A stretch of 64,000 nt of DNA. Source: Turneriella parva DSM 21527 (GTDB lineage: Bacteria; Spirochaetota; Leptospiria; Turneriellales; Turneriellaceae). The stretch spans positions 1,612,001 through 1,676,000 of the forward strand of contig NC_018020.1 of NCBI RefSeq assembly GCF_000266885.1, in the 5' to 3' direction. The notes under the pieces were generated by a model. That model was given only the letters and a program-made list of their open reading frames with translations. It was not told the DNA's origin and made no database searches. The translations under genes were made by a program, and so were the position numbers. Within the stretch, counting starts at the first letter, position 1, and each line of letters starts with the position of its first letter. This document shows, one piece after another, positions 6,924 through 19,118 of the stretch.

Positions 6924-7472
6924 ATGATGCGAACTTTCTTGTTTTCTGTGCTGTTCACCGCAGTTATCTGCACCGTTGCAGCATGTGCAAAAACGAATAC
7001 CGCTCCCAAAGGACCTGCAAAAACTGCAATGCGGGCCAAGATTATTGAGGCTTTCTTCAGTTCACCATTGAAAATAAAAGGTTCGATGAATGGTTTTTGG
7101 TCTGTTGACTTGAAAGAATTTGCGTCGCATCTCAAAAAATCTCGCAAAAGCGACATCAACTTGAGTATGACCAACTACTATCTTCGTATTGAAGGTTCTT
7201 TTTGTGACGAACTTTTTTTTGTGGATGGAGGTGATTTCACAATGAGCGCCGGAAGCCTAAAAAAGCTCGAATCAACCAAAGATCGTAATATTTATTCGGT
7301 CGTCTACAACAGGGAGCTTCCTCAGGGCACCAAGCTTACCCAGGGTGGGATTCTTTCAGCCTTCATTGATGAGAGGCGCATAGTTGTTGAGTTTCCAGAT
7401 CATAAACTGACATTCTTTCCATCTGATGAAAATCCTGCAGTTTTGTCCGCACGCTATGGCAAAACCCCATGA
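6924..7472 (+). CDS. Lipoprotein, unknown function (182 aa)
   Basis: It begins with a signal peptide and lipobox VAAC (Cys at about residue 21), followed by a Lys/Ala-rich linker and a mixed alpha/beta body with no motif I recognise. It lies 57 bases after the giant lipoprotein gene and its last four bases overlap the start of the next gene (ATGA), so it belongs to the same transcription direction and is translationally coupled to its neighbour. The pair may assist or decorate the large lipoprotein, but that is inference from position. Two adjacent ATG codons could start it; no strong ribosome-binding site is visible. Confidence 0.75.
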   Translation: MMRTFLFSVLFTAVICTVAACAKTNTAPKGPAKTAMRAKIIEAFFSSPLKIKGSMNGFWSVDLKEFASHLKKSRKSDINLSMTNYYLRIEGSFCDELFFVDGGDFTMSAGSLKKLESTKDRNIYSVVYNRELPQGTKLTQGGILSAFIDERRIVVEFPDHKLTFFPSDENPAVLSARYGKTP

Positions 7473-8724: not shown

Positions 8725-9408
8725 TTATCGGGCTATTTTGTACCAGATTATGGTCCAAAACAGACGAAATAGCGCACGAAAAGTATACCCTGACTCAGTT
8801 CGCTTAATTTCCTGCGAAGCATCAATCTCAATTTCAGCGAAGCTATGCGCTTCTTCCAACAACTGAATTTTGATAACTTTAGGAGTTTTCCCTCGCAAAC
8901 GATCGATTACCTCGCGCCGCGCTGCGCCAGTACTACAACCAAAGTCTTGGATCCTGTACGAATACAAAAGAGACGTCAATACCGCAACGCATGCCGATCC
9001 GACCTCACGCCACCAGATTCTGGGCCTGCCTCCGATACGTCGTCCCAAAACCAGTTCAATGCCGTTCGACGCCGCTATGGCCAATTTCTTTAAGTCTTCG
9101 AGCTTGCATGGCAAGTCACAGTCAACGGATATTAATATAGCTTCTTGGGCCGCAAATGCACCGCGCGCGCTCGCCCATTGTTGTCCCAGGTTGATGCTGT
9201 GTCGCAGCAAACGAATATTTGGATTTTCGCCAGCCGCCAATTTTAGCAGCGACCACGATTCATCAATGCTGGCATCATCTACGAATATCAGCTCGTACCG
9301 TGTGAATTCTCTAGCAAGATATGAAGTTAATTGGCGAATTGTCTCCGCTAAGATAGCAGCATTGTTGTAAACTGGCACGATGACGGAGACGGCAAAATCT
9401 GCTTTCAT
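8725..9408 (-). CDS. GT2 glycosyltransferase, DPM1-like (copy B)
   Basis: A 227-residue family 2 glycosyltransferase. The nucleotide-sugar-binding acidic residues are D44/D45 (VDDAS) and the metal-binding DxD is D96/D98 (VDCDLP). Its size matches the soluble dolichol-phosphate-mannose-synthase type without the C-terminal membrane pair of GtrB. By analogy it would transfer a sugar from a nucleotide donor to a polyprenyl phosphate on the cytoplasmic side. It lies 3 bases after the GT-C gene at 9412-10995, which could use the lipid-linked sugar. It is a diverged paralogue of the gene at 11715-12398, alignable along its length. The actual sugar is unknown. Confidence 0.88.
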   Translation of the reverse strand: MKADFAVSVIVPVYNNAAILAETIRQLTSYLAREFTRYELIFVDDASIDESWSLLKLAAGENPNIRLLRHSINLGQQWASARGAFAAQEAILISVDCDLPCKLEDLKKLAIAASNGIELVLGRRIGGRPRIWWREVGSACVAVLTSLLYSYRIQDFGCSTGAARREVIDRLRGKTPKVIKIQLLEEAHSFAEIEIDASQEIKRTESGYTFRALFRLFWTIIWYKIAR

Positions 9409-9411
9409 TTC

Positions 9412-10995
9412 TTAATAAGCAGTCATCTTTGATTGTGGCAGCCAGATTATGAGTCTCTTGTGATACTTGTATTCGGGTTCTCTAATGAAATAGAGAGTGG
9501 CCGGGAGCAATGCGGCCGGCCAGGTCACATGCTGATCAAGCCAACGCACATAACTTAATTTCTGAAAGTTGAAGAATTCTTCAATTTGCTCTGGCGAGCC
9601 GTCGCTGACGACAATGGCTTCGGGATTCGCGGTTAACCAGCGGCGCAACCTGAAGAGATAACTATCTTCGCCGCAGCAGGGATAAAAGATATTCTGGTTA
9701 CGGTAATTCAGCTCACTCCCCGCATACCAAATCTCGCCGACCGTAAGGACTGGATCATTCACTACAAAAACGACAGGCTTGGTCTTCGGCATAGTTTCCG
9801 GGAGCTTGAACAGGTGGACATTTTCGCGTTTGTAAAAGTGATTGGGCATAACCAACTGGCTAAAATTCCATGTTATCAAGAAAATGGCTAAGATCCAGGC
9901 TAAGGTCATCAAGCCTGCGTGCAGCTTGCGGAGCGTAAATGCCACAAGCAGGCATAGCAGCGGCGACAAAAAAATCCAGCTGTATATGGCATTCGCCCGC
10001 GTACCGGCGATAGCCAAGGCAATCGGCCATCCGAACAGCATGAAGAGGCAAAAGATCTTAATCGGAATTTGGACATTGCTGTAAAAAAATCTCCAAGCGG
10101 CTACACCGATGCCCATAAAGAACGGAACCGCAAACCAGTTCATTACGGGAATGGTTGCCGGAATGAAGATAAAGCCGTGAAATATAGTTTGCATTGCTGC
10201 CCAAAGCCATGTGAATCCCCCAAAACGCTCATAATCGAGATGTGCATATATGAAGAAAGTTCGTAGAAAATCCGACGGATGTTCAATTTGCAGTACGAAA
10301 AATGGTACAACAAAGTACACAATGCCGATAACGAACAATGCTCCTGCGCAAACTAAAAGCAGGTGCCGCCATTCGTTCTTTCGTACGAAGCCCAGCAGCA
10401 CTACCAGGCAGACAGAATAGGAAAGCGCCGCAGTGTGGTAGCATACGGCAACGCACAATAAGAATGCCCCCACGTATAATCTCCTTTTAGTCCCGGACAA
10501 TGCAAAAGCGAAAACCTGCCACGTGCCTGCCAGGGATAGCGCCAGTGAGGGCATGTGCCATTCGCCGGAAAAAACAGCCAACAACGATGAGTGCGTCGTA
10601 AGAAATAGTGCCGTTGCCGCGTTTGACACACCCTTTGAGAATCGCATTTGCAGAGCGAGGAGATAAACAAATACCGCTGCAGCCAGAGTTGAGAAAATAT
10701 TGGTAAAGCGTATCCAACTTAGTGCGGGGACCTTAAACCAGTCGAATGCAATGCCTGCCAGAACATGACCGAGGGGGTGGTTTGGGTGATAGCGTCCGAA
10801 ATCCGGCAGGTATTCACCTTGAGCCAGAGCGAAAGTGGTGGATAGGTTGTAATATTTCTCAATGGCAGCAGCGTACGAGTAGGCTTCCATTGATTGCAGC
10901 TGGAAGGGGAAGGCGACAAACAAGACCAGAGCCACGGCAAGCACCAGAATCAGATGCCTATGATCGCGGACGATTAGAATCATGGAGAAAATCAA
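9412..10995 (-). CDS. GT-C membrane glycosyltransferase (copy B)
   Basis: A 527-residue polytopic membrane protein with about ten or more hydrophobic segments. After the first segment comes a loop with SMEAYSYAAAIE and GRYHPNHPLGHVLAG, where GT-C enzymes (ArnT, PMT and GT39-like) carry a catalytic acidic residue; E37 is the candidate. Such enzymes transfer a sugar from a polyprenyl-phosphate donor to lipid, polysaccharide or protein on the outer face of the membrane. The C-terminal 120 residues are soluble. It starts one base from the GNAT gene at 10996 and is paralogous to 12401-13993. Acceptor and sugar cannot be read from the sequence. Confidence 0.82.
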   Translation of the reverse strand: MIFSMILIVRDHRHLILVLAVALVLFVAFPFQLQSMEAYSYAAAIEKYYNLSTTFALAQGEYLPDFGRYHPNHPLGHVLAGIAFDWFKVPALSWIRFTNIFSTLAAAVFVYLLALQMRFSKGVSNAATALFLTTHSSLLAVFSGEWHMPSLALSLAGTWQVFAFALSGTKRRLYVGAFLLCVAVCYHTAALSYSVCLVVLLGFVRKNEWRHLLLVCAGALFVIGIVYFVVPFFVLQIEHPSDFLRTFFIYAHLDYERFGGFTWLWAAMQTIFHGFIFIPATIPVMNWFAVPFFMGIGVAAWRFFYSNVQIPIKIFCLFMLFGWPIALAIAGTRANAIYSWIFLSPLLCLLVAFTLRKLHAGLMTLAWILAIFLITWNFSQLVMPNHFYKRENVHLFKLPETMPKTKPVVFVVNDPVLTVGEIWYAGSELNYRNQNIFYPCCGEDSYLFRLRRWLTANPEAIVVSDGSPEQIEEFFNFQKLSYVRWLDQHVTWPAALLPATLYFIREPEYKYHKRLIIWLPQSKMTAY

Positions 10996-11664
10996 CTAAG
11001 TGGCAGCATTCGCGTAACTGGCGAGGAGCCGATTCACAATATCGTAGTTTAGCGATCCTGGCGACCCAAAGACGCGCAGTTCGTGTTCGGCCTTATTCTT
11101 GATGGCACGTTTGATGAAATTCATGAGCGAATCCCGTTTCCGCAGGTACGTCTCTCTGCTAATTGAAATGAGGAAAGAGTCGCCATCTTTTTCTTCCAGA
11201 TCGAAGCCGAAAAACGTGTACATTTTAATCCCAGCCGTGTTATCCTTAAGCACTATCGATTCAATTCGATTCACCTCGCAGTGGTAGCTGGCAAAATCAA
11301 GTGCCAGCAAAGCCGCAAATACGGGTATTCTAGTCGAGATATAATCATCATCCCAGAAGAATAAGCCACAGGTGCTGCTAGCCCGATTCTCAGGTATATC
11401 ACGCAGGTACACAACACCAATGCGCTTTTCCTCATGGATGACAACAAATACATAGTGCTCTTTTCGGTTCATTTCATCGAACCATTTATCCTGTTCAGCT
11501 TCAGAAATAATCTTGCGGTACACATGGTTCTCTCGGACAAAGTCCTTATTGCGCCCGAGTCGTACTACTTCTTTGTCATTTTCGACCATTCGGCGAAGCT
11601 CGATTCCGAATTGTCGCAGCGTCAGCGGCTCATACCTCCGTTCCTGCTCATTTGGTGTTGGCAT
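10996..11664 (-). CDS. GNAT-family N-acetyltransferase (copy B)
   Basis: A 222-residue protein with the layout of GNAT sugar-amine acetyltransferases: an early HVYRKIIS segment, a central beta core (YVFVVIHEEKRIGVVYLRD), and a late segment DNTAGIKMYTFFGFDLEE typical of acetyl-CoA-binding GNATs such as those acting on aminosugars. A basic helical tail follows. It abuts the GT-C gene (10995/10996) in a probable operon. Its paralogue is at 15097-15741. It may acetylate an amino sugar before or after lipid-linked transfer, which is inference from its neighbours. Confidence 0.8.
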   Translation of the reverse strand: MPTPNEQERRYEPLTLRQFGIELRRMVENDKEVVRLGRNKDFVRENHVYRKIISEAEQDKWFDEMNRKEHYVFVVIHEEKRIGVVYLRDIPENRASSTCGLFFWDDDYISTRIPVFAALLALDFASYHCEVNRIESIVLKDNTAGIKMYTFFGFDLEEKDGDSFLISISRETYLRKRDSLMNFIKRAIKNKAEHELRVFGSPGSLNYDIVNRLLASYANAAT

Positions 11665-11714
11665 GCTTATCTCGAGGCCAGCATCTGATGTTCCGATGCC
11701 CTTGACAATCTATA

Positions 11715-12398
11715 TTATCGAAATCGGCTGAAAAATAGTGCCAAAAACAACGTTAAGAGCTTCGCAAAGGAGTAACTTGTGCTTGCTGTAGATGAATTTT
11801 CGGAAGGATGAATTTCTATCTCAATGTATGTGTTGGCCAATCTAAGTAATTCCAGTTTCAAAAGGCGGACAGGCTTCGCATCTGACCGGCGTTCTTCAAT
11901 CAAGCGGCGATGGGCCGCGGCAATGCCACACCCAAAGTCGGAAATTTTGAAGGGGTAAAGTTGACGAAAGGTCATAGTAGCGATTCGGGAACCGACACCG
12001 CGCCACCAGCTGCGGCGAAGATTTTTAGGTCTTTTGCCCATTACGAATTCATAACCTTTTCGAGTCATGATCGCCATCTCCTTAAGATCTGCGAGCGCGC
12101 AAGGGAGATCGGCGTCGACAGCCAGAATGATTTCCTCTCGTGCGAGGAAGGCCCCATCAGCTATTGTCTGCTGTTGGCCTTGGTTATGTTTATGCATGAG
12201 TAAACGGATGTTCGGATTGTCAGATGCAGCGGCGATAAGGATCTTCGGTGACTCATCAGTGCTGTCGTCATCCACAAGAATCAACTCATAGTTTGCGAAC
12301 TCTCGGGACAGGTAATGGGTAAGCGCTGAGAGTGTCTTCGGCAATACCCTGGCGTTGTTAAAGACCGGCATGATTACAGATAGGCCGAAAAGCTCCAT
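11715..12398 (-). CDS. GT2 glycosyltransferase, DPM1-like (copy A)
   Basis: A 227-residue family 2 glycosyltransferase with acidic motifs D43/D44/D45 (VDDDS) and DxD D95/D97 (VDADLPC). It has the same length and layout as the copy at 8725-9408, including the conserved NPNIRLL and DFGC segments. It starts 2 bases after the stop of the GT-C gene at 12401. The likely role is charging a polyprenyl phosphate with a sugar for that GT-C partner. Two diverged copies next to two GT-C copies suggest two different sugars or acceptors. Confidence 0.88.
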   Translation of the reverse strand: MELFGLSVIMPVFNNARVLPKTLSALTHYLSREFANYELILVDDDSTDESPKILIAAASDNPNIRLLMHKHNQGQQQTIADGAFLAREEIILAVDADLPCALADLKEMAIMTRKGYEFVMGKRPKNLRRSWWRGVGSRIATMTFRQLYPFKISDFGCGIAAAHRRLIEERRSDAKPVRLLKLELLRLANTYIEIEIHPSENSSTASTSYSFAKLLTLFLALFFSRFR

Positions 12399-12400
12399 GA

Positions 12401-13993
12401 TTAATAACGGACTAAATTCTCAGGAACCCAAATAATCAATTTTTTCTCATTCCACGGAGATGCGATGTGTTGCACGTACAGCGTCGACGGGACTAGATCC
12501 AGAGGCCACTTTGCTCGGCGATCGATCCAACGTACATAATGCAATCCTTCGCTTCGCAGCAAATTTTCCAAACCGAATTCATTGCCGTCGCTCACAAGGA
12601 CAAATCCCGGATTCTTCCTAGTCCAATTCTTTAGTCGGGAAAAGTAATTATTTTCTCCGCAGCAAGGAAAGAAATGCATCTGGTTGCGGAATCCCAATTC
12701 GCTACCCGCAAACCAGATTTCAGGATCGGTAAACACCGGCGAGTTCTCGACAAATGCCACTGGTACACTTGTTGGCGCCGCCGGGGGTAGACCAAAAAAA
12801 AATATGTTATCCCGCCTTTGCAGGCTGTTAGGCAGTAGCGCGAAAACCAAGTTGCAAATAAGCAGGCAGCCAGGGATAAAAGACAGGTAGGTTTTGGCTC
12901 GCCGGTGAAGATCAGCTATCGCCTTAACGGCGACTAGGATAAAGAATGGCAGCAGAAAAAGCCAGCCCAACAGGGCATCGGGGCGTGCCGAAAAGGCCAC
13001 GTACAGCGCAATCCAAGGGCCTGGCATGAGTAAGATTATGGCCTTAAGATGCCGCTGGATTTGGGCCCGGTAAAATCTCGAAAAGGCAAGGCAAATTATT
13101 AGAATGAGCAAACCTGCGTATAACTCTGTTCCTTTGAACCCCGCGGGTGTAAAGATGACTGATTGCAAAAGCGTTCGGGCGGCGACGCTCAACCATACAA
13201 AGCCCTCATACCGGGTAATGGGGAGATACTTGTAGATCAGAAAAGTTCGGAGAAACTCTTCAGCGGAGCGAAAACCAAATAGAATGAATGGTATTACAAA
13301 ATAGACAAGTAGTAGGATAATAAAGATCAATAAACCGGCAATTAAGATTTCCCGCCACCGCTCGTGTATTGGTCGTACGAAGAGGAGCACGATACCGACC
13401 GGGATCATGAAATAGGAAGCTCCCAAATGATATGATGCGCCGAACGCCATCAGTAAGGCCGCGGCATAGAGATTCCTTTTCCTTCCCTCTACCACGTAGG
13501 TGAAAGCCTGCCAAACGCCTCCAAGGCTCAAGGCCAGGGCGGGCATGTGCCATTCGCCGGAAAAAATCGTAAATAGCCCGCAGTATGTAGACAGAAAAAG
13601 TGCAACAGTCGTAGCAGAAAGGCCTCTGGAAAATCGCAATTGTAAGAGTATGAGGTAAAAGAACAGGCTTCCAACTAGAGAAGCGGTCATGTTCATGAAC
13701 CGCATCCACGCCATGGCTGGTATGTGTAGCCAGTCGTAGGCCCAACCGGCAAGTACATGGCCTAACGGATGGTTTGGGTGGTAGCGGCCAAAATCCGGTA
13801 GGTTTTCGCCCTGAGCCAGCGAAAAACCAATAGAGTCCTTATAGTACCGCTCAATTGCTGCAGCATAGTTATAGGGCTCAATGGATTGAAGCTGTAGGGG
13901 AAACGCCAAATAAAGCGCCAGTACTATCGCCAGCACAATTGTGAGATGTCGGTGATCGCGGACGACAGATATCACCAGTTTAGCGTTGGTCAC
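12401..13993 (-). CDS. GT-C membrane glycosyltransferase (copy A)
   Basis: A 530-residue polytopic protein with the same signature loop as copy B (SIEPYNYAAAIE, then GRYHPNHPLGHVLAG) and the conserved FSGEWHMPALALS segment. The candidate catalytic acid is the Glu in SIEPY. It should act on the outer face of the inner membrane with a polyprenyl-linked sugar. Its start at 13993 faces the methyltransferase gene on the plus strand across a short divergent promoter region (13994-14059). The last 130 residues form a soluble domain with PCCGENNYF, matching PCCGEDSYL in copy B. Confidence 0.82.
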   Translation of the reverse strand: MTNAKLVISVVRDHRHLTIVLAIVLALYLAFPLQLQSIEPYNYAAAIERYYKDSIGFSLAQGENLPDFGRYHPNHPLGHVLAGWAYDWLHIPAMAWMRFMNMTASLVGSLFFYLILLQLRFSRGLSATTVALFLSTYCGLFTIFSGEWHMPALALSLGGVWQAFTYVVEGRKRNLYAAALLMAFGASYHLGASYFMIPVGIVLLFVRPIHERWREILIAGLLIFIILLLVYFVIPFILFGFRSAEEFLRTFLIYKYLPITRYEGFVWLSVAARTLLQSVIFTPAGFKGTELYAGLLILIICLAFSRFYRAQIQRHLKAIILLMPGPWIALYVAFSARPDALLGWLFLLPFFILVAVKAIADLHRRAKTYLSFIPGCLLICNLVFALLPNSLQRRDNIFFFGLPPAAPTSVPVAFVENSPVFTDPEIWFAGSELGFRNQMHFFPCCGENNYFSRLKNWTRKNPGFVLVSDGNEFGLENLLRSEGLHYVRWIDRRAKWPLDLVPSTLYVQHIASPWNEKKLIIWVPENLVRY

Positions 13994-14059
13994 ACCACCC
14001 GACAGCTTATCGGGACGGCCTTGTCAACGTATGTTTACAGGAGAACAAGCAGTAGACTC

Positions 14060-15067
14060 ATGGCACAAGGCCTACAATTGCCAAGGAGTAATTTTATTCT
14101 CAATATGCGAAATGCCAGAACCCGTAACATTCCCTGCAATCACCGGAGCAAGCATCTGGAAGAGAATGAAGTGTACGATGCCCGGGCCCACTGTCCAATT
14201 TGCCTTTACTCGGGAAAGAGGATTCAAGGTATTCGGCTACAGTCCAACCCCATAATTCATCTCTTGCACTGCCCTGCTTGTGGTGGGCGTTCGGCGGCAT
14301 GGATGCCCCGACCTGAAGTTCTGCAAAACTACTATTCCGGTTATTTCGATTCGAGTGCAGCGGCGGGGGAAAGCGATGCCGTTTGTGTGACATTCCAGGG
14401 AATCGAGCGTTTCGCCTGCCATCTGATCAGGGCCATGCCTCTAGCAGCAGGCACTTCGCCAGTGCGCATTCTCGATTATGGTGGCGGCGATGGGTCTTTG
14501 GCGCTGGCGATAGCGAAATATCTGGGTAAGCGGCCTGTTTCGATCACGCTGGTTGACTACCAAGAACCTCGGGCGATGCCTGTGCCGGAGCATGTGCAGG
14601 TGGTGCACCTTACAGAACTAAGTCAGGTTCAGGAAAAGGATCCAGGACGGAAGTTTGATATCGTGCTCGCCTCGGCAGTTACAGAGCATATTCCCGAGCT
14701 GAACGGGGTTCTAAACTTGCTATTCGGCATGATAGAGCCGGGTGGCTACTTCTACGCCAGAACCCCCTACATGAGTAATCTCATCGCTTACCTGCGATTC
14801 ATCGACTTTGTGTACCCGGCCCATGTGCACGACCTGGGGGCATCGTTCTGGAACCGAATAACCAAGACTTTCCACTTGAATGCGGATATCATCGTTTCCC
14901 GTCCTTCCATTGTGGAATCGGAATGGCGCAAGGCATTTATAAGGACCCTCGTAGCCTATACTCTCAAATTTCCGGCGCACATCGAGGGGAAAATCGCACC
15001 GCATCGGGTCGATCGGTGGTGGAACCTGGTCGGGGGGTGGGAAGTCGTGTTGCGCACGCGCCAGTGA
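14060..15067 (+). CDS. Class I SAM methyltransferase with N-terminal zinc finger
   Basis: About 335 residues from the ATG at 14060. Two cysteine pairs (CPIC at about 45-48 and CPACGG at about 71-75) probably bind zinc, followed by a Rossmann methyltransferase domain with motif I ILDYGGGDGS (about 137-146) and the later segments FDIVLASAVTEHI and EPGGYFYARTP. This layout is common in sugar or glycolipid methyltransferases. The start is uncertain: ATG 14060 (AGGAGA at 14039-14044) and ATG 14105 (AGGAG at 14084-14088) both have rather distant Shine-Dalgarno sequences, and the open frame extends to 13946 over the divergent gene. It is the only plus-strand gene among the minus-strand sugar genes. 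Confidence 0.85.
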   Translation: MAQGLQLPRSNFILNMRNARTRNIPCNHRSKHLEENEVYDARAHCPICLYSGKRIQGIRLQSNPIIHLLHCPACGGRSAAWMPRPEVLQNYYSGYFDSSAAAGESDAVCVTFQGIERFACHLIRAMPLAAGTSPVRILDYGGGDGSLALAIAKYLGKRPVSITLVDYQEPRAMPVPEHVQVVHLTELSQVQEKDPGRKFDIVLASAVTEHIPELNGVLNLLFGMIEPGGYFYARTPYMSNLIAYLRFIDFVYPAHVHDLGASFWNRITKTFHLNADIIVSRPSIVESEWRKAFIRTLVAYTLKFPAHIEGKIAPHRVDRWWNLVGGWEVVLRTRQ

Positions 15068-15096
15068 GTGCGCCCTTACGCATTGGGCCACGAAAA

Positions 15097-15741
15097 TCAA
15101 CCAGGCAGTAACGAATTTATTACCGGAAGATTGAGTGCGCTCTTGGTGCCGCCGATTTTCAACTCCTGCTCTTCCCTCTTTTTGGCTGCGCGGCAGGCGA
15201 ATGCCCTGAGGCGGTCTCTGTTCGCCATGTAAGTCTTCTTGTCCATAGTGATATTATAAGATTCGCTATCTCGCTCAGTGAACTCGAATCCAAAAAATTG
15301 ATTCATCTTGATCGCCGCAGAATTGCTTTTGAGTACCACGGATTCCGTGCCGGAGATTCCAACGTTATAGAAAAAGAAATCCAGCGCAATGAGAATACTT
15401 AGAATCGGAACCTTGGTTCCGATGTAGTCCTCGTCCCATATGAACGCGCCGCATCGGGGCACCATTCGATCCGGAAGGAAATCTTTGACTATGACAATAC
15501 CAACATCCCGGTCATGGTAATGAATAATTAATATATAGTGTAACGGCGACGATACTTCTCTAAACCAGGTCTCGTGCTGCTCAATCGATATGATTTCACG
15601 GTAAACATGATTGTTCCGAACAAACTCCTTATTTCTGCCGACACGTACCATTTCTTTATCAGCTTCGGTCATGCGCCGCAGTTGAATACCGTACTGCGTT
15701 AGAGTCAGCGGCTCGTATTCGGAAGTCTCATCCATCTGCAT
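15097..15741 (-). CDS. GNAT-family N-acetyltransferase (copy A)
   Basis: A 214-residue paralogue of the protein at 10996-11664, sharing EYEPLTLTQYG near the start, GRNKEFVRNNHVYREIIS, an IWDEDYIGTKVPI segment and the acetyl-CoA-binding region SNSAAIKMNQFFGFEF. Unlike copy B it is cut off from its GT-C and GT2 partners by the convergent methyltransferase gene (ends 15067). It starts 39 bases from the divergent membrane-protein gene at 15781. It probably acetylates an aminosugar, with the substrate unknown. Confidence 0.8.
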   Translation of the reverse strand: MQMDETSEYEPLTLTQYGIQLRRMTEADKEMVRVGRNKEFVRNNHVYREIISIEQHETWFREVSSPLHYILIIHYHDRDVGIVIVKDFLPDRMVPRCGAFIWDEDYIGTKVPILSILIALDFFFYNVGISGTESVVLKSNSAAIKMNQFFGFEFTERDSESYNITMDKKTYMANRDRLRAFACRAAKKREEQELKIGGTKSALNLPVINSLLPG

Positions 15742-15780: not shown

Positions 15781-16758
15781 TTGTTTTCAACTGTTCACTA
15801 TAACCTTGTTGACGGATTATCGCATGAAAGTCATGTTGGGCGCATGGGGGCAAAGAATTTTGATCATTTTTTGGCGGAATTCAGCTACCCCGTTCGCTTT
15901 TTTTTCATTCTAACCATCGGCACACTTTGCTGGGTAGAGCCTTTCTTTCTGCCGGAAAACAGCATAGGCGGTGTGACGGCAATCGTCGCGCAAGGCCATT
16001 TTTTGTTGGGGTACCTGTACCAGTACAAAGCTGGAAAAATGAATCAGGCCTACGCCATGCTTTATTTGCCGGTCGCCGTACTCTTGTTTGGCGCCAGCAT
16101 TTTCTTACCAGTGGAGCGGCTCATCTATGTGCTCGCGGCAACTTATTTTCTGGTGCACTATTTTTATGATGAGCGGTATCTGCTGAAGGAAAGAGCTGAA
16201 TTCTCTGGCTGGAAAATCACGTTGCCGACCATTGCCGTACTTTTCGCCGAAACACTCTACCGTTATGCTGGTCTGCGGTATGCTTTGTTGCTACAACTGG
16301 CGTTCGTCGTTAGCGCCGCCTATATGCTCTGGCTAATCCTATCGGAGATTCTCCGGATACACCGCCTTTCAGCCCGTAATTGGTACTTTTTGGCAACCTT
16401 CTGCATCGCGGCAACGTTGACGCTTTCTGGTAAGGCAGCTCCTGGTTCCCTTAACCCGAATGCGTTGAATTTTCTGATCTTGATGCACTGTGCCAACTGG
16501 TATTGGCGTTACGTCGAGAAATTTTCTGCAGATCGCAAATTGCTCCGCAGATTTTCTGTCGAAACGGTGATCATAAATCTATTTCTGGGTGTCCTGATGT
16601 TTTTCCGCTTTCACTCATCTTATTCAGTTTTTGTGTCAGCCTTGGCGGGAGTCCTCTTTGTGCATCCGTATTTTCAGGTATGGTCGCTCTTGCACTTTGT
16701 GGTAACATACAGACCTGCGGACAACATGAACTGGATACCCATGCGAGCCAGCGCATGA
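15781..16758 (+). CDS. Polytopic membrane protein, unrecognised (325 aa)
   Basis: Eight or more hydrophobic segments fill the protein from about residue 38. Histidines and aromatic residues lie at membrane borders (QGHFLLGYLYQY, FLVHYFYDERY, MHCANWYWRYVE, LLHFVVTY), a pattern seen in membrane oxidases, hydroxylases and Brp/Blh-type enzymes, but I cannot assign one. A TTG start at 15781 is favoured because GGAG (15771-15774) sits six bases upstream; an ATG at 15844 is the alternative. It heads a plus-strand run with UbiA (16782) and two hydroxylases, so a role in lipid synthesis or modification is likely by context only. Confidence 0.7.
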   Translation: MFSTVHYNLVDGLSHESHVGRMGAKNFDHFLAEFSYPVRFFFILTIGTLCWVEPFFLPENSIGGVTAIVAQGHFLLGYLYQYKAGKMNQAYAMLYLPVAVLLFGASIFLPVERLIYVLAATYFLVHYFYDERYLLKERAEFSGWKITLPTIAVLFAETLYRYAGLRYALLLQLAFVVSAAYMLWLILSEILRIHRLSARNWYFLATFCIAATLTLSGKAAPGSLNPNALNFLILMHCANWYWRYVEKFSADRKLLRRFSVETVIINLFLGVLMFFRFHSSYSVFVSALAGVLFVHPYFQVWSLLHFVVTYRPADNMNWIPMRASA

Positions 16759-16781: not shown

Positions 16782-17612
16782 ATGAGTACCTTAGTAATAC
16801 GCACCTGGAAATTGTTTCATCGCCTGAAAATTCCGTTCACATTGATATACTTTTCAGTCAATTTTGGCTTTCTCACGCGCTATAGGTTTGAAGGGAATAT
16901 ATGGCTGCTACTCGCGGCGTTCACGATTCAAAATTTCGCAATGCATTGGTTCAACAATTTGTTTGATTCAATTGAAGATGAAATAACGGGGCAGCGTACT
17001 GTCTTCTCCAGGCCATCTCTCGTATTGCTGCTGGCAGTGGCAGCGACTTTATTATCGTCTTGGATGGTCTGGTATTTCGGATTCAGCCTGCTATGCTTCA
17101 CGGTTCTGTTCGCGTTGATGTTCCTATACAGCGCACCTATTGGGTCTTGGCGAATCAAAAAGATACTGTATCTGAAAAATATCACAGGTAGTCTTTTCTG
17201 GTGGTATATTCCCTTCACATTGATAACCGCATCGCATACGACCGCCGGTTTCAGACAGGTGTTCATGGAGAACCTTGTCTTGCTCGCCATTTTTATGCCG
17301 TTCGAGCCGCTTTGGGATATTAAGGATATGGAGGGCGACGAGGCTTCGGGGATCAAAACGATTCCCAATCAGTTTGGCCTGGCTGCTACAAAACTGCTGG
17401 TTGTATCAGCCTTTTTGCTACTGGCCGTGGTCAAGCTGAGCAATATCACGTATGTGATTTTTTTTCTGATTCCCCTGAGTATTCTGACAATACAGATAAC
17501 ACCTAAAAATAAACTGCTGATTTCACAATTTATCATGACTTTCGTTGCGTTTTACGGCTTAGCGGGGCATGTCCTCTTACCGACTCTTATCTTACCCATG
17601 TTGCGAAAATGA
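16782..17612 (+). CDS. UbiA-family prenyltransferase
   Basis: A 276-residue polytopic enzyme of the UbiA superfamily. The first aspartate-rich motif is NNLFDSIEDE (N58/N59, D62, E65, D66) and the second is DIKDMEGDE (D179, D182, E184, D186); together they bind the magnesium-diphosphate of the prenyl donor. Family members attach prenyl chains to aromatic or sugar-phosphate acceptors in the inner membrane. It is not clearly the housekeeping UbiA or MenA. The end overlaps the start of the hydroxylase gene at 17609 by four bases, so the two are translationally coupled, hinting that the product of one is modified by the other. Confidence 0.87.
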   Translation: MSTLVIRTWKLFHRLKIPFTLIYFSVNFGFLTRYRFEGNIWLLLAAFTIQNFAMHWFNNLFDSIEDEITGQRTVFSRPSLVLLLAVAATLLSSWMVWYFGFSLLCFTVLFALMFLYSAPIGSWRIKKILYLKNITGSLFWWYIPFTLITASHTTAGFRQVFMENLVLLAIFMPFEPLWDIKDMEGDEASGIKTIPNQFGLAATKLLVVSAFLLLAVVKLSNITYVIFFLIPLSILTIQITPKNKLLISQFIMTFVAFYGLAGHVLLPTLILPMLRK

Positions 17613-18289
17613 AAGGGCAGGGTATACTCTATCGCATCGTATCCTGGTGTGGTCAGCGATTTATCGCAGTTAGCGAATATGTCCTGCGAAGATACTCCAG
17701 CCCGGCTATCAAAGAACCCGGTTGGGTGGCAAATCTTTGTCTGTATACCGACACAATGCGTGCGGAGTTTCTGCAATTATTCGACGAAAACATTCGCGAA
17801 TATGGCATGATCTCGCCGGAGCAACGTCGTATTACCGGAGGAAACTCCTGGAAGATATTCATCCTCAAGGCTTACGGGCGCACATTTCGGGAAAATTGCC
17901 TCCAGGCAAAAGAGACCGCGCGTCTGTGTCTCAGTATACCTGAAATTACTTCGGCCGCTTTCTCCGTGTTGGAACATGGTACGCACATTACCCCTCACCG
18001 GGGCGTGTATGCCGGCGTACTGCGCTGCATCATTCCATTGATTGTCCCCGACGGCGACTGTGGCATTCGCGTCGGAGAAAGAGTGTACCGTTGGCAGGTC
18101 GGAAAACCAGTGCTGTTTGACGATACAATCGAACACGAGGCATGGAATCGCACCCAGGAAAGACGCGTTGCCCTGCTCATTGACTATGTTCAACCGCTGC
18201 CGCAGCCGCTTGCCGCGATCAATCGTTGCGTGATTTGGCTGATTGGCAGATCGCCGTTCATTGGTCGAATGTTGCGGGCGAGTATGTAA
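17609..18289 (+). CDS. Aspartyl/asparaginyl beta-hydroxylase family (LpxO-like), copy 1
   Basis: A 226-residue protein with both halves of the AspH/LpxO iron site: H130 in ITPHRGVYAGVLRC and H176 in FDDTIEHEAWN, with R131 positioned for 2-oxoglutarate. These enzymes are non-haem iron, 2-oxoglutarate dioxygenases; LpxO hydroxylates a lipid A acyl chain, others hydroxylate peptides. The amphipathic C-terminus (INRCVIWLIGRSPFIGRML) is like that of LpxO-type proteins and suggests membrane association. It is coupled to UbiA upstream and followed by a paralogue at 18390. A lipid substrate is inference. Confidence 0.85.
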   Translation: MKGQGILYRIVSWCGQRFIAVSEYVLRRYSSPAIKEPGWVANLCLYTDTMRAEFLQLFDENIREYGMISPEQRRITGGNSWKIFILKAYGRTFRENCLQAKETARLCLSIPEITSAAFSVLEHGTHITPHRGVYAGVLRCIIPLIVPDGDCGIRVGERVYRWQVGKPVLFDDTIEHEAWNRTQERRVALLIDYVQPLPQPLAAINRCVIWLIGRSPFIGRMLRASM

Positions 18290-18389: not shown

Positions 18390-19118
18390 TTGAGCAATTT
18401 GGTTAACAAGCTGATTAGGATCGTGTTCGCGCCGGTCTCGCGTGGTTACGGCGCATTTCTCTCGCTTTTTTTCCAGACGAAACCATTTTATGATCCGGCG
18501 ACGATTTCCTGGGCAGCGAGACTGGAAGAGCATTGGCTGGAGATCCGGTCCGAGCTGGACGCGCTCATGCGGCTACAGGCCGACCAGTTGCCTTCGTTCA
18601 GCGACCTCGCGCCAGGCGAGGAGATGTTCAGGCACGTGCGCTGGAAGGTCTTCATGTTTAGGGCTTACGGGCACTTCATAGAGCAGAACTGCAGGCTGTG
18701 TCCCCGGACGACGGAGCTGATTTCCGGGATTCCCGACATCACGACGGCGTTCTTTTCGATTCTGCATCCGCGCATGCACATTCCCCCGCACCGCGGTCCC
18801 TTTCACGGCGTCTTGCGTTGCCACCTTGCACTCATCGTTCCCGGCAGGGCGGGCGAAGCCCTGTGCCGGATTCGGGTGGCTGACGAAGTTCGAACGTGGG
18901 AAGAGGGGAAAATCCTGCTTTTCGATGACACCTTCTGGCACGAGGTGTGGAATGATTCCGATTTACCGCGCGTGGTCCTCTTCATGGACGTAAAGAAAAG
19001 GCTCCCCTGGCCGATTAATTGGATCAACGGCATTACATATTGGATCCTATCGAGGGTCTTTTTGCCGATCATGGCCGACAGGAAGCAGATGCAAGTGCGA
19101 CCTGCTAAGCTGAGCTAG
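18390..19118 (+). CDS. Aspartyl/asparaginyl beta-hydroxylase family (LpxO-like), copy 2
   Basis: A 242-residue paralogue of the preceding gene. Iron ligands are H134 in IPPHRGPFHGVLRCH and H184 in FDDTFWHEVWN. The start is TTG at 18390 with GGGAGGT just upstream (18380-18386), a strong but closely spaced ribosome-binding site. Its base composition is more G+C-rich than copy 1, so the pair may have different histories. It probably hydroxylates a lipid or peptide using iron and 2-oxoglutarate. It ends the plus-strand run of the island. Confidence 0.82.
   Translation: MSNLVNKLIRIVFAPVSRGYGAFLSLFFQTKPFYDPATISWAARLEEHWLEIRSELDALMRLQADQLPSFSDLAPGEEMFRHVRWKVFMFRAYGHFIEQNCRLCPRTTELISGIPDITTAFFSILHPRMHIPPHRGPFHGVLRCHLALIVPGRAGEALCRIRVADEVRTWEEGKILLFDDTFWHEVWNDSDLPRVVLFMDVKKRLPWPINWINGITYWILSRVFLPIMADRKQMQVRPAKLS

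Follow-up and report, generated by a model that had tools for sequence, protein, structure and literature searches.

The window analysed here is a 64,000-nucleotide stretch of the genome of Turneriella parva DSM 21527 (4,409,302 bases, two contigs). Turneriella is a free-living spirochaete and a relative of Leptospira. On the minus strand of the window, the gene order GNAT (N-acetyltransferase), GT-C glycosyltransferase and GT2 glycosyltransferase occurs twice, and all six open reading frames that an earlier note on this DNA had reported were found at their places (Table 1). The duplicated cassette is real and belongs to a larger conserved cluster. Its general logic is known; the GT-C family and the companion genes have been found in this genus only.

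Table 1. Genes of the duplicated cassette and of the surrounding cluster (positions in the window)
Feature	Position	Strand	Remarks
GNAT1, Acetyltransf_3-type N-acetyltransferase	15097..15741	-	PseH-like, below PseH cut-off; G001 orthologue 79% identical
GT-C1, multi-spanning glycosyltransferase	12401..13993	-	predicted GT-C fold; invariant E39; motif RYHPNHPL
GT2_1, ArnC-type catalytic domain	11715..12398	-	DAD motif; without C-terminal membrane helices
GNAT2, N-acetyltransferase	10996..11664	-	predicted GNAT fold; G001 orthologue 77-78% identical
GT-C2, GT-C1 paralogue (44%)	9412..10995	-	G001 orthologue 66% identical
GT2_2, GT2_1 paralogue (46%)	8725..9408	-	DCD motif; no membrane helices
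S-adenosylmethionine (SAM)-dependent methyltransferase	14105..15067	+	reading frame open from 13946 (13946-15067), start uncertain; Methyltransf_23, 3.4e-13
Family-less membrane protein	15781..16758	+	divergent from GNAT1; 55% identical in G001
UbiA-family prenyltransferase	16782..17612	+	81% identical in G001
AspH1, aspartyl/asparaginyl beta-hydroxylase family, LpxO/OlsC-like	17609..18289	+	iron/2-oxoglutarate ligands kept; orthologue adjoins cassette in G001 and G006
AspH2, second hydroxylase of AspH1's family	18390..19118	+	OlsC is its top NCBIfam match (1e-55), short of the cut-off
o156, small protein with N-terminal hydrophobic segment	7469..7939	+	convergent with cassette; beside cassette in three genomes
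o182, small predicted lipoprotein	6924..7472	+	only in the three cassette-bearing genomes of the genus
Rep1910, giant predicted lipoprotein, 1910 residues	1134..6866	+	adjoins cassette in all three genomes

The paralogues align from end to end and are yet well diverged, as had been noted earlier, with amino acid identities of 44.4% for the GNAT, 44.0% for the GT-C (476.6 bits, E = 8e-143) and 45.8% for the GT2 proteins. The gaps between the GT-C and GT2 genes measure 2 and 3 bases, in agreement with the reported spacing of no more than 3 bases. The description as two three-gene sets holds only in part: all six genes are present, but set 1 is interrupted between GNAT1 and GT-C1 by an opposite-strand methyltransferase gene, which the earlier note had missed. 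In the congener G001, a third GNAT stands at this place, and GNAT1 is therefore not the neighbour of GT-C1 in T. parva. No remnant of a third GNAT was detectable under the methyltransferase gene. The methyltransferase has a Cys-rich N-terminus and no close relative in the other six genomes of the genus (G001 to G006).

Both GT2 proteins belong to Pfam Glycos_transf_2 (E about 1e-21). Their profile matched ArnC structures with E = 2.5e-41, which supports the role of polyprenyl-phosphate-sugar synthases that the earlier note had assigned to them. The profile aligned to residues 9-227 of the 322 residues of E. coli ArnC (E = 6e-31), and the DDxS and DxD catalytic motifs are intact in GT2_1 and GT2_2. 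Both proteins stop at about ArnC position 227, where the membrane helices of ArnC begin; neither contains a hydrophobic segment, and the two C-terminal helices of ArnC and GtrB are absent. A GT-A enzyme without transmembrane segments that works with a separate membrane protein is a described variant (PMC8035078).

For GT-C1 and GT-C2, no relevant Pfam match was found (one GT-C relative matches PMT at 9.6e-5), and their identity therefore rests on the predicted fold and on a profile match. The AlphaFold model (predicted local distance difference test, pLDDT, 87; predicted template modelling score, pTM, 0.89) was compared with the PDB using Foldseek and gave ALG9, oligosaccharyltransferase (OST) and ArnT as top matches with a probability of 1.00 (template modelling score 0.57 for ArnT). 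The profile of ten GT-C relatives matched the ArnT/GT39 profile with E = 6.8e-5 (probability 64%; reversed controls 0.44 and 0.54), while the PDB sequence search with the GT-C profile returned nothing relevant. The predicted fold and the profile link argue for genuine GT-C glycosyltransferases, as proposed before. A candidate catalytic acid is present as well, namely E39 in the first outside loop, which is invariant in ten out of ten proteins. Lack of catalytic acids was one of the two refuting conditions in the earlier note, and this result is in favour of its proposal. In a weak single-sequence alignment, E39 lines up with the Asp of ArnT's DETRYA and the RYHPNHP/RYHP motif with ArnT's RYFEKP. 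ArnT requires the Tyr of its RYA motif and the Lys of its YFEKP motif (PMC5377068). In the GT-C proteins, Tyr43 is kept, RYA is changed to NYA or SYA, and YFEKP is replaced by YHPNHP.

Outside Turneriella, no GT-C relatives were found in a GTDB contig scan with two motif patterns only, in 393 genomes of the phylum (up to three candidates scored per genome, E <= 1e-8) or in plasmids. Within those scans, the sequence family appears to occur in Turneriella only; distant relatives may be missed because the contig scan used two patterns and the phylum scan few candidates per genome. The family is not limited to the cassette pair, since a third, lone GT-C paralogue with 30-31% identity is encoded ~2.5 Mb away in T. 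parva (L021:7734-9374; G000:C1:4134760-4136346). It is flanked by what we take, from reading the sequences, to be an oxoglutarate dehydrogenase gene and a hisI-like gene. G001, G004 and G006 keep a GT-C gene at a similar place, to which G001 adds a GT2, a GNAT and a hydroxylase gene. A further GT-C of PMT_2 type, narrowly exceeding the Pfam cut-off, is encoded in G001 between the UbiA and hydroxylase genes (L016:4635-6167, plus strand); T. parva lacks it.

The GNAT proteins match Pfam Acetyltransf_3 above its cut-off. All seven GNAT relatives match PseH (best 1.3e-13), which is a nucleotide-sugar 4-N-acetyltransferase. As a possible source of an amino sugar, WecE (dTDP-Fuc4N transaminase) was considered and rejected: it is present in T. 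parva, but its distribution in the genus does not follow that of the cassette, as it was not found above cut-off in the cassette-bearing G006 and was found in the cassette-free G002 and G005.

The history of the two sets was followed within the genus. In G001, this locus is spread over two contigs and comprises three genes each for GT-C and GNAT and two for GT2; the more distant congener G006 has a single GNAT-GT2-GT-C set, compared with the two GT-C genes of the T. parva locus. Copy number thus varies between species, and the two acetamido-sugar types suggested in the earlier note found no support here. The third GNAT of G001 is related to the GNAT of G006. In the clusters of all three genomes, GT2 and GT-C stay adjacent. 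In IQ-TREE phylogenies, the cassette GT2s of T. parva and of G001, four in all, form one clade (96/96), GNAT1 groups with GNAT2 (96/97), and GT-C1 and GT-C2 fall into a cassette clade apart from the lone GT-Cs (100/100), although the placement of G006 was not settled. According to the earlier note, independent acquisition of the two sets would refute its proposal; the trees instead favour tandem duplication within the lineage. Judged from these sequences, the sets most likely arose before T. parva separated from G001, its nearest relative, and then underwent gains and losses. An independent or horizontal acquisition of the two sets found no support in the trees. The search for the same unit elsewhere, also suggested before, showed GNAT, GT2 and GT-C as a group at two loci of the genus.

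Between T. parva and G001, the orthologues are 79% (GNAT1), 77-78% (GNAT2), 66% (GT-C2), 53% (GT2_2) and 52% (GT-C1) identical. The between-species ranges are 49-53% for GT2 and 52-66% for GT-C, and 77-79% for GNAT, with 80% for a housekeeping protein. The faster divergence of the glycosyltransferases fits a diversification of a surface structure. It is also what antigenic variation predicts, and the cassette could then serve ordinary O-antigen tailoring, with side-branch sugars added as in GtrA/GtrB/Gtr seroconversion by the same GT2 and GT-C logic (PMC11127046). This explanation is rather unlikely: next to the cluster, neither GtrA nor any O-antigen gene could be identified, and it would need a separate cause for the association with hydroxylases described below, which it leaves unexplained.

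The functional unit exceeds three genes and includes co-conserved partners that the earlier note had not mentioned. In G006, the cassette adjoins orthologues of AspH1, o156, o182 and Rep1910 (a protein of ~1900 residues). When the flanks were compared (57 kb of the G006 contig against 84 kb around the T. parva locus), a single response-regulator domain match of 38% was found beyond this block. The block is cohesive, given the fact that the two surroundings share almost nothing outside it, and it seems to have been preserved as a unit through changes in its flanks. Of the seven genomes of the genus, only T. parva, G001 and G006 contain o182, the GNAT family and AspH-type hydroxylases; GT-C genes are present in these three and, as a lone copy, in G004. 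Absences are soft for G001, G003 and G004, as these are incomplete metagenome-assembled genomes (82-84% completeness), compared with 93-99% for G002, G005 and G006.

Each of the seven hydroxylase genes found in the genus has a GT-C gene no more than about 6.5 kb away, a linkage that gives the best hint at function obtained here. At a further locus on contig C8 of G001, GT2, GNAT, GT-C and hydroxylase genes stand together. The residues H130, R139, H176 and R186 (catalytic His and 2-oxoglutarate-binding Arg) are invariant in the seven proteins. In NCBIfam, the hydroxylases come closest to the lipid hydroxylases OlsC and LpxO, without reaching the curated cut-offs: the scores within the AspH1/AspH2 pair were 188.7 and 134.3 bits against OlsC (cut-off 450) and 115.8 and 78 bits against LpxO (cut-off 500). 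Near the lone GT-C of G006, a phytanoyl-CoA-dioxygenase-like gene (L018:6428-7848, minus strand) lies beside an AspH-type hydroxylase gene, which places two 2-oxoglutarate oxygenases next to each other. Between the o182 and o156 orthologues of G006, a 490-residue membrane protein is encoded (L017:11019-12491, minus strand) whose C-terminal part matches UbiA weakly and below the cut-off. It was tried as a homologue of the T. parva membrane protein/UbiA pair and dismissed because the similarity was not significant.

The neighbourhood of the giant lipoprotein raises the question of a protein acceptor. The GT-C enzymes might modify exported proteins with Rep1910 as the main acceptor, and the AspH-type enzymes would then hydroxylate Asp or Asn of these proteins. 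Rep1910, o182 and o156 accompany the cassette in three genomes, despite different wider surroundings in T. parva and G006, and GT-C folds serve protein glycosylation too, as OST and PMT among the matches illustrate. Rep1910 is rich in Asn and has no Pfam matches. N-X-S/T sequons are not enriched in it (z = 0.8, 0.8 and 2.4), and sequon enrichment thus gave no clear signal of N-glycosylation. Distant Rep1910-like proteins are encoded elsewhere in T. parva (G000:C1:1097330 and 1103836) and in cassette-free congeners, which speaks against a protein acceptor, as does the proximity of the hydroxylases to OlsC and LpxO. Furthermore, the hydroxylase sequences lack a hydrophobic segment long enough for a membrane anchor or a signal sequence, which makes it less clear how they would meet an exported protein. 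Protein glycosylation retains a minor share of our confidence and is the main rival to a lipid acceptor, to which the LpxO/OlsC-like hydroxylases point.

According to established logic, a GT2 enzyme makes a polyprenyl-phosphate sugar, a flippase turns the sugar and a GT-C enzyme transfers it outside (PMC8035078, PMC11127046). By analogy, and with about evenly balanced confidence, we favour a genus-specific variant of this multi-component transmembrane glycosylation that would use an N-acylated amino sugar and probably a lipid A- or lipopolysaccharide-type acceptor. From the gene content, the predicted folds and families, the motifs, the duplication history and the co-conservation, we infer the biochemical steps, the sugar and the acceptor as follows. 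The GNAT would N-acylate the amino sugar while it is nucleotide-bound. The GT2, held at the membrane without helices of its own, would move the sugar onto undecaprenyl phosphate, and a flippase encoded elsewhere would turn the lipid-linked sugar outwards. Finally, the GT-C would pass it on to the envelope acceptor, using E39 as its catalytic acid. The acyl chains of the acceptor lipid may be modified by the LpxO/OlsC-like hydroxylases. The two sets from local duplication are likely to differ in the sugar, its linkage or the position on the acceptor.

Several observations weigh against this variant. The PseH matches of the GNATs (38.8 and 51.3 bits) are below the curated NCBIfam cut-off of 93.1, and the search with the predicted GNAT fold ranked polyamine acetyltransferases (SpeG) first, with FdhC and PseH also among the matches. 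There is no sugar-nucleotide gene in the cluster. It contains no flippase gene either, although types other than GtrA were not searched for, and a GtrA-type domain was found only once in the genome, in a GT2-GtrA fusion outside the cluster. The essential Lys of ArnT's YFEKP motif is absent from the GT-C proteins, and T. parva and G004 retain, at a separate locus, a lone GT-C that is accompanied by neither GT2 nor GNAT. The hydroxylase family also takes in protein hydroxylases, and the profile matched human AspH with 5e-37, in favour of the protein acceptor discussed above. The GT2-GtrA fusion (L091:301-1875, plus strand) adjoins an LptF/G-like gene about 9 kb from the lone GT-C; its function as a flippase or synthase is possible.

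Some of these points could also mean that the genes are mere neighbours, the GNAT acting on a small amine or peptide and the GT2 and GT-C working in unrelated routes. The GNAT family is broad, with SpeG enzymes as its best structural matches, a lone GT-C exists, and GT2 and GNAT are divergently oriented on contig C8 of G001. We consider the absence of a joint pathway improbable, as the three genes stand together at two loci and the GNAT family is found in the same three genomes as the hydroxylase.

The favoured glycosylation variant was compared with known systems. Like in GtrA/GtrB/Gtr and CsbB/GtcA/YfhO, a GT2 polyprenyl-phosphate-sugar synthase gene would be tightly coupled to a GT-C gene. 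The multi-component systems include GT-A variants without transmembrane segments (PMC8035078), to which the cassette GT2s correspond; in contrast to these systems, the cluster has no flippase or identified membrane partner. It further differs in the PseH-like GNAT and the LpxO/OlsC-like hydroxylase as standing partners, in its tandem amplification and in its one-genus GT-C family. In the Arn pathway, ArnC and ArnT bring 4-amino-4-deoxy-L-arabinose (L-Ara4N) onto lipid A. The cassette GT2 resembles the catalytic domain of ArnC, and the GT-C has a predicted ArnT-type fold with equivalent first-loop motifs. By analogy with formylation by ArnA, an N-acyl step would precede lipid loading in the cassette, presumably with acetyl instead of formyl. 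However, ArnA, ArnB, ArnD and ArnE/F are missing from the cluster, the GT2s do not have the ArnC helices, and the GT-Cs differ from ArnT in the YFEKP Lys.

The pentofuranose three-component system of Citrobacter (GT136) combines a GT-C and a UbiA-family protein in one locus, as observed here. In contrast, a GT2 is present in T. parva, neither HAD domain nor MATE flippase was seen, and the UbiA protein is at most a putative phosphoribosyltransferase. Since UbiA and GT-C systems exist (PMC11127046), the donor might be a pentofuranose made by the UbiA protein through a polyprenyl-phosphoribose route and not by the GT2. In line with this, a UbiA-family protein is encoded at the locus in both T. 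parva and G001, and the G006 cluster contains a different, UbiA-like one. The UbiA proteins gave no PDB sequence match at E <= 0.1, the T. parva protein was best matched by other UbiA models, a HAD phosphatase domain was not observed, and the catalytic motifs of the GT2s are intact, which makes such a route very improbable.

A more daring version of the glycosylation variant, which we regard as a long shot, links the hydroxylase directly to the transfer: the Asp/Asn-type hydroxylase would first make the acceptor hydroxyl, on an acyl chain or on the giant lipoprotein, and the GT-C would glycosylate it with the N-acylated sugar, the cluster being self-contained and movable. Judged from titles and abstract openings, no relevant literature on T. 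parva lipopolysaccharide or surface chemistry was found. The cluster would add to the known scheme of periplasmic glycosylation a GT-C family without assignment in the libraries used and a compact, helix-less ArnC-type synthase, together with unusual partners, namely a GNAT and a lipid-type hydroxylase. The conserved partner block thereby offers a concrete and testable gene list for one pathway.

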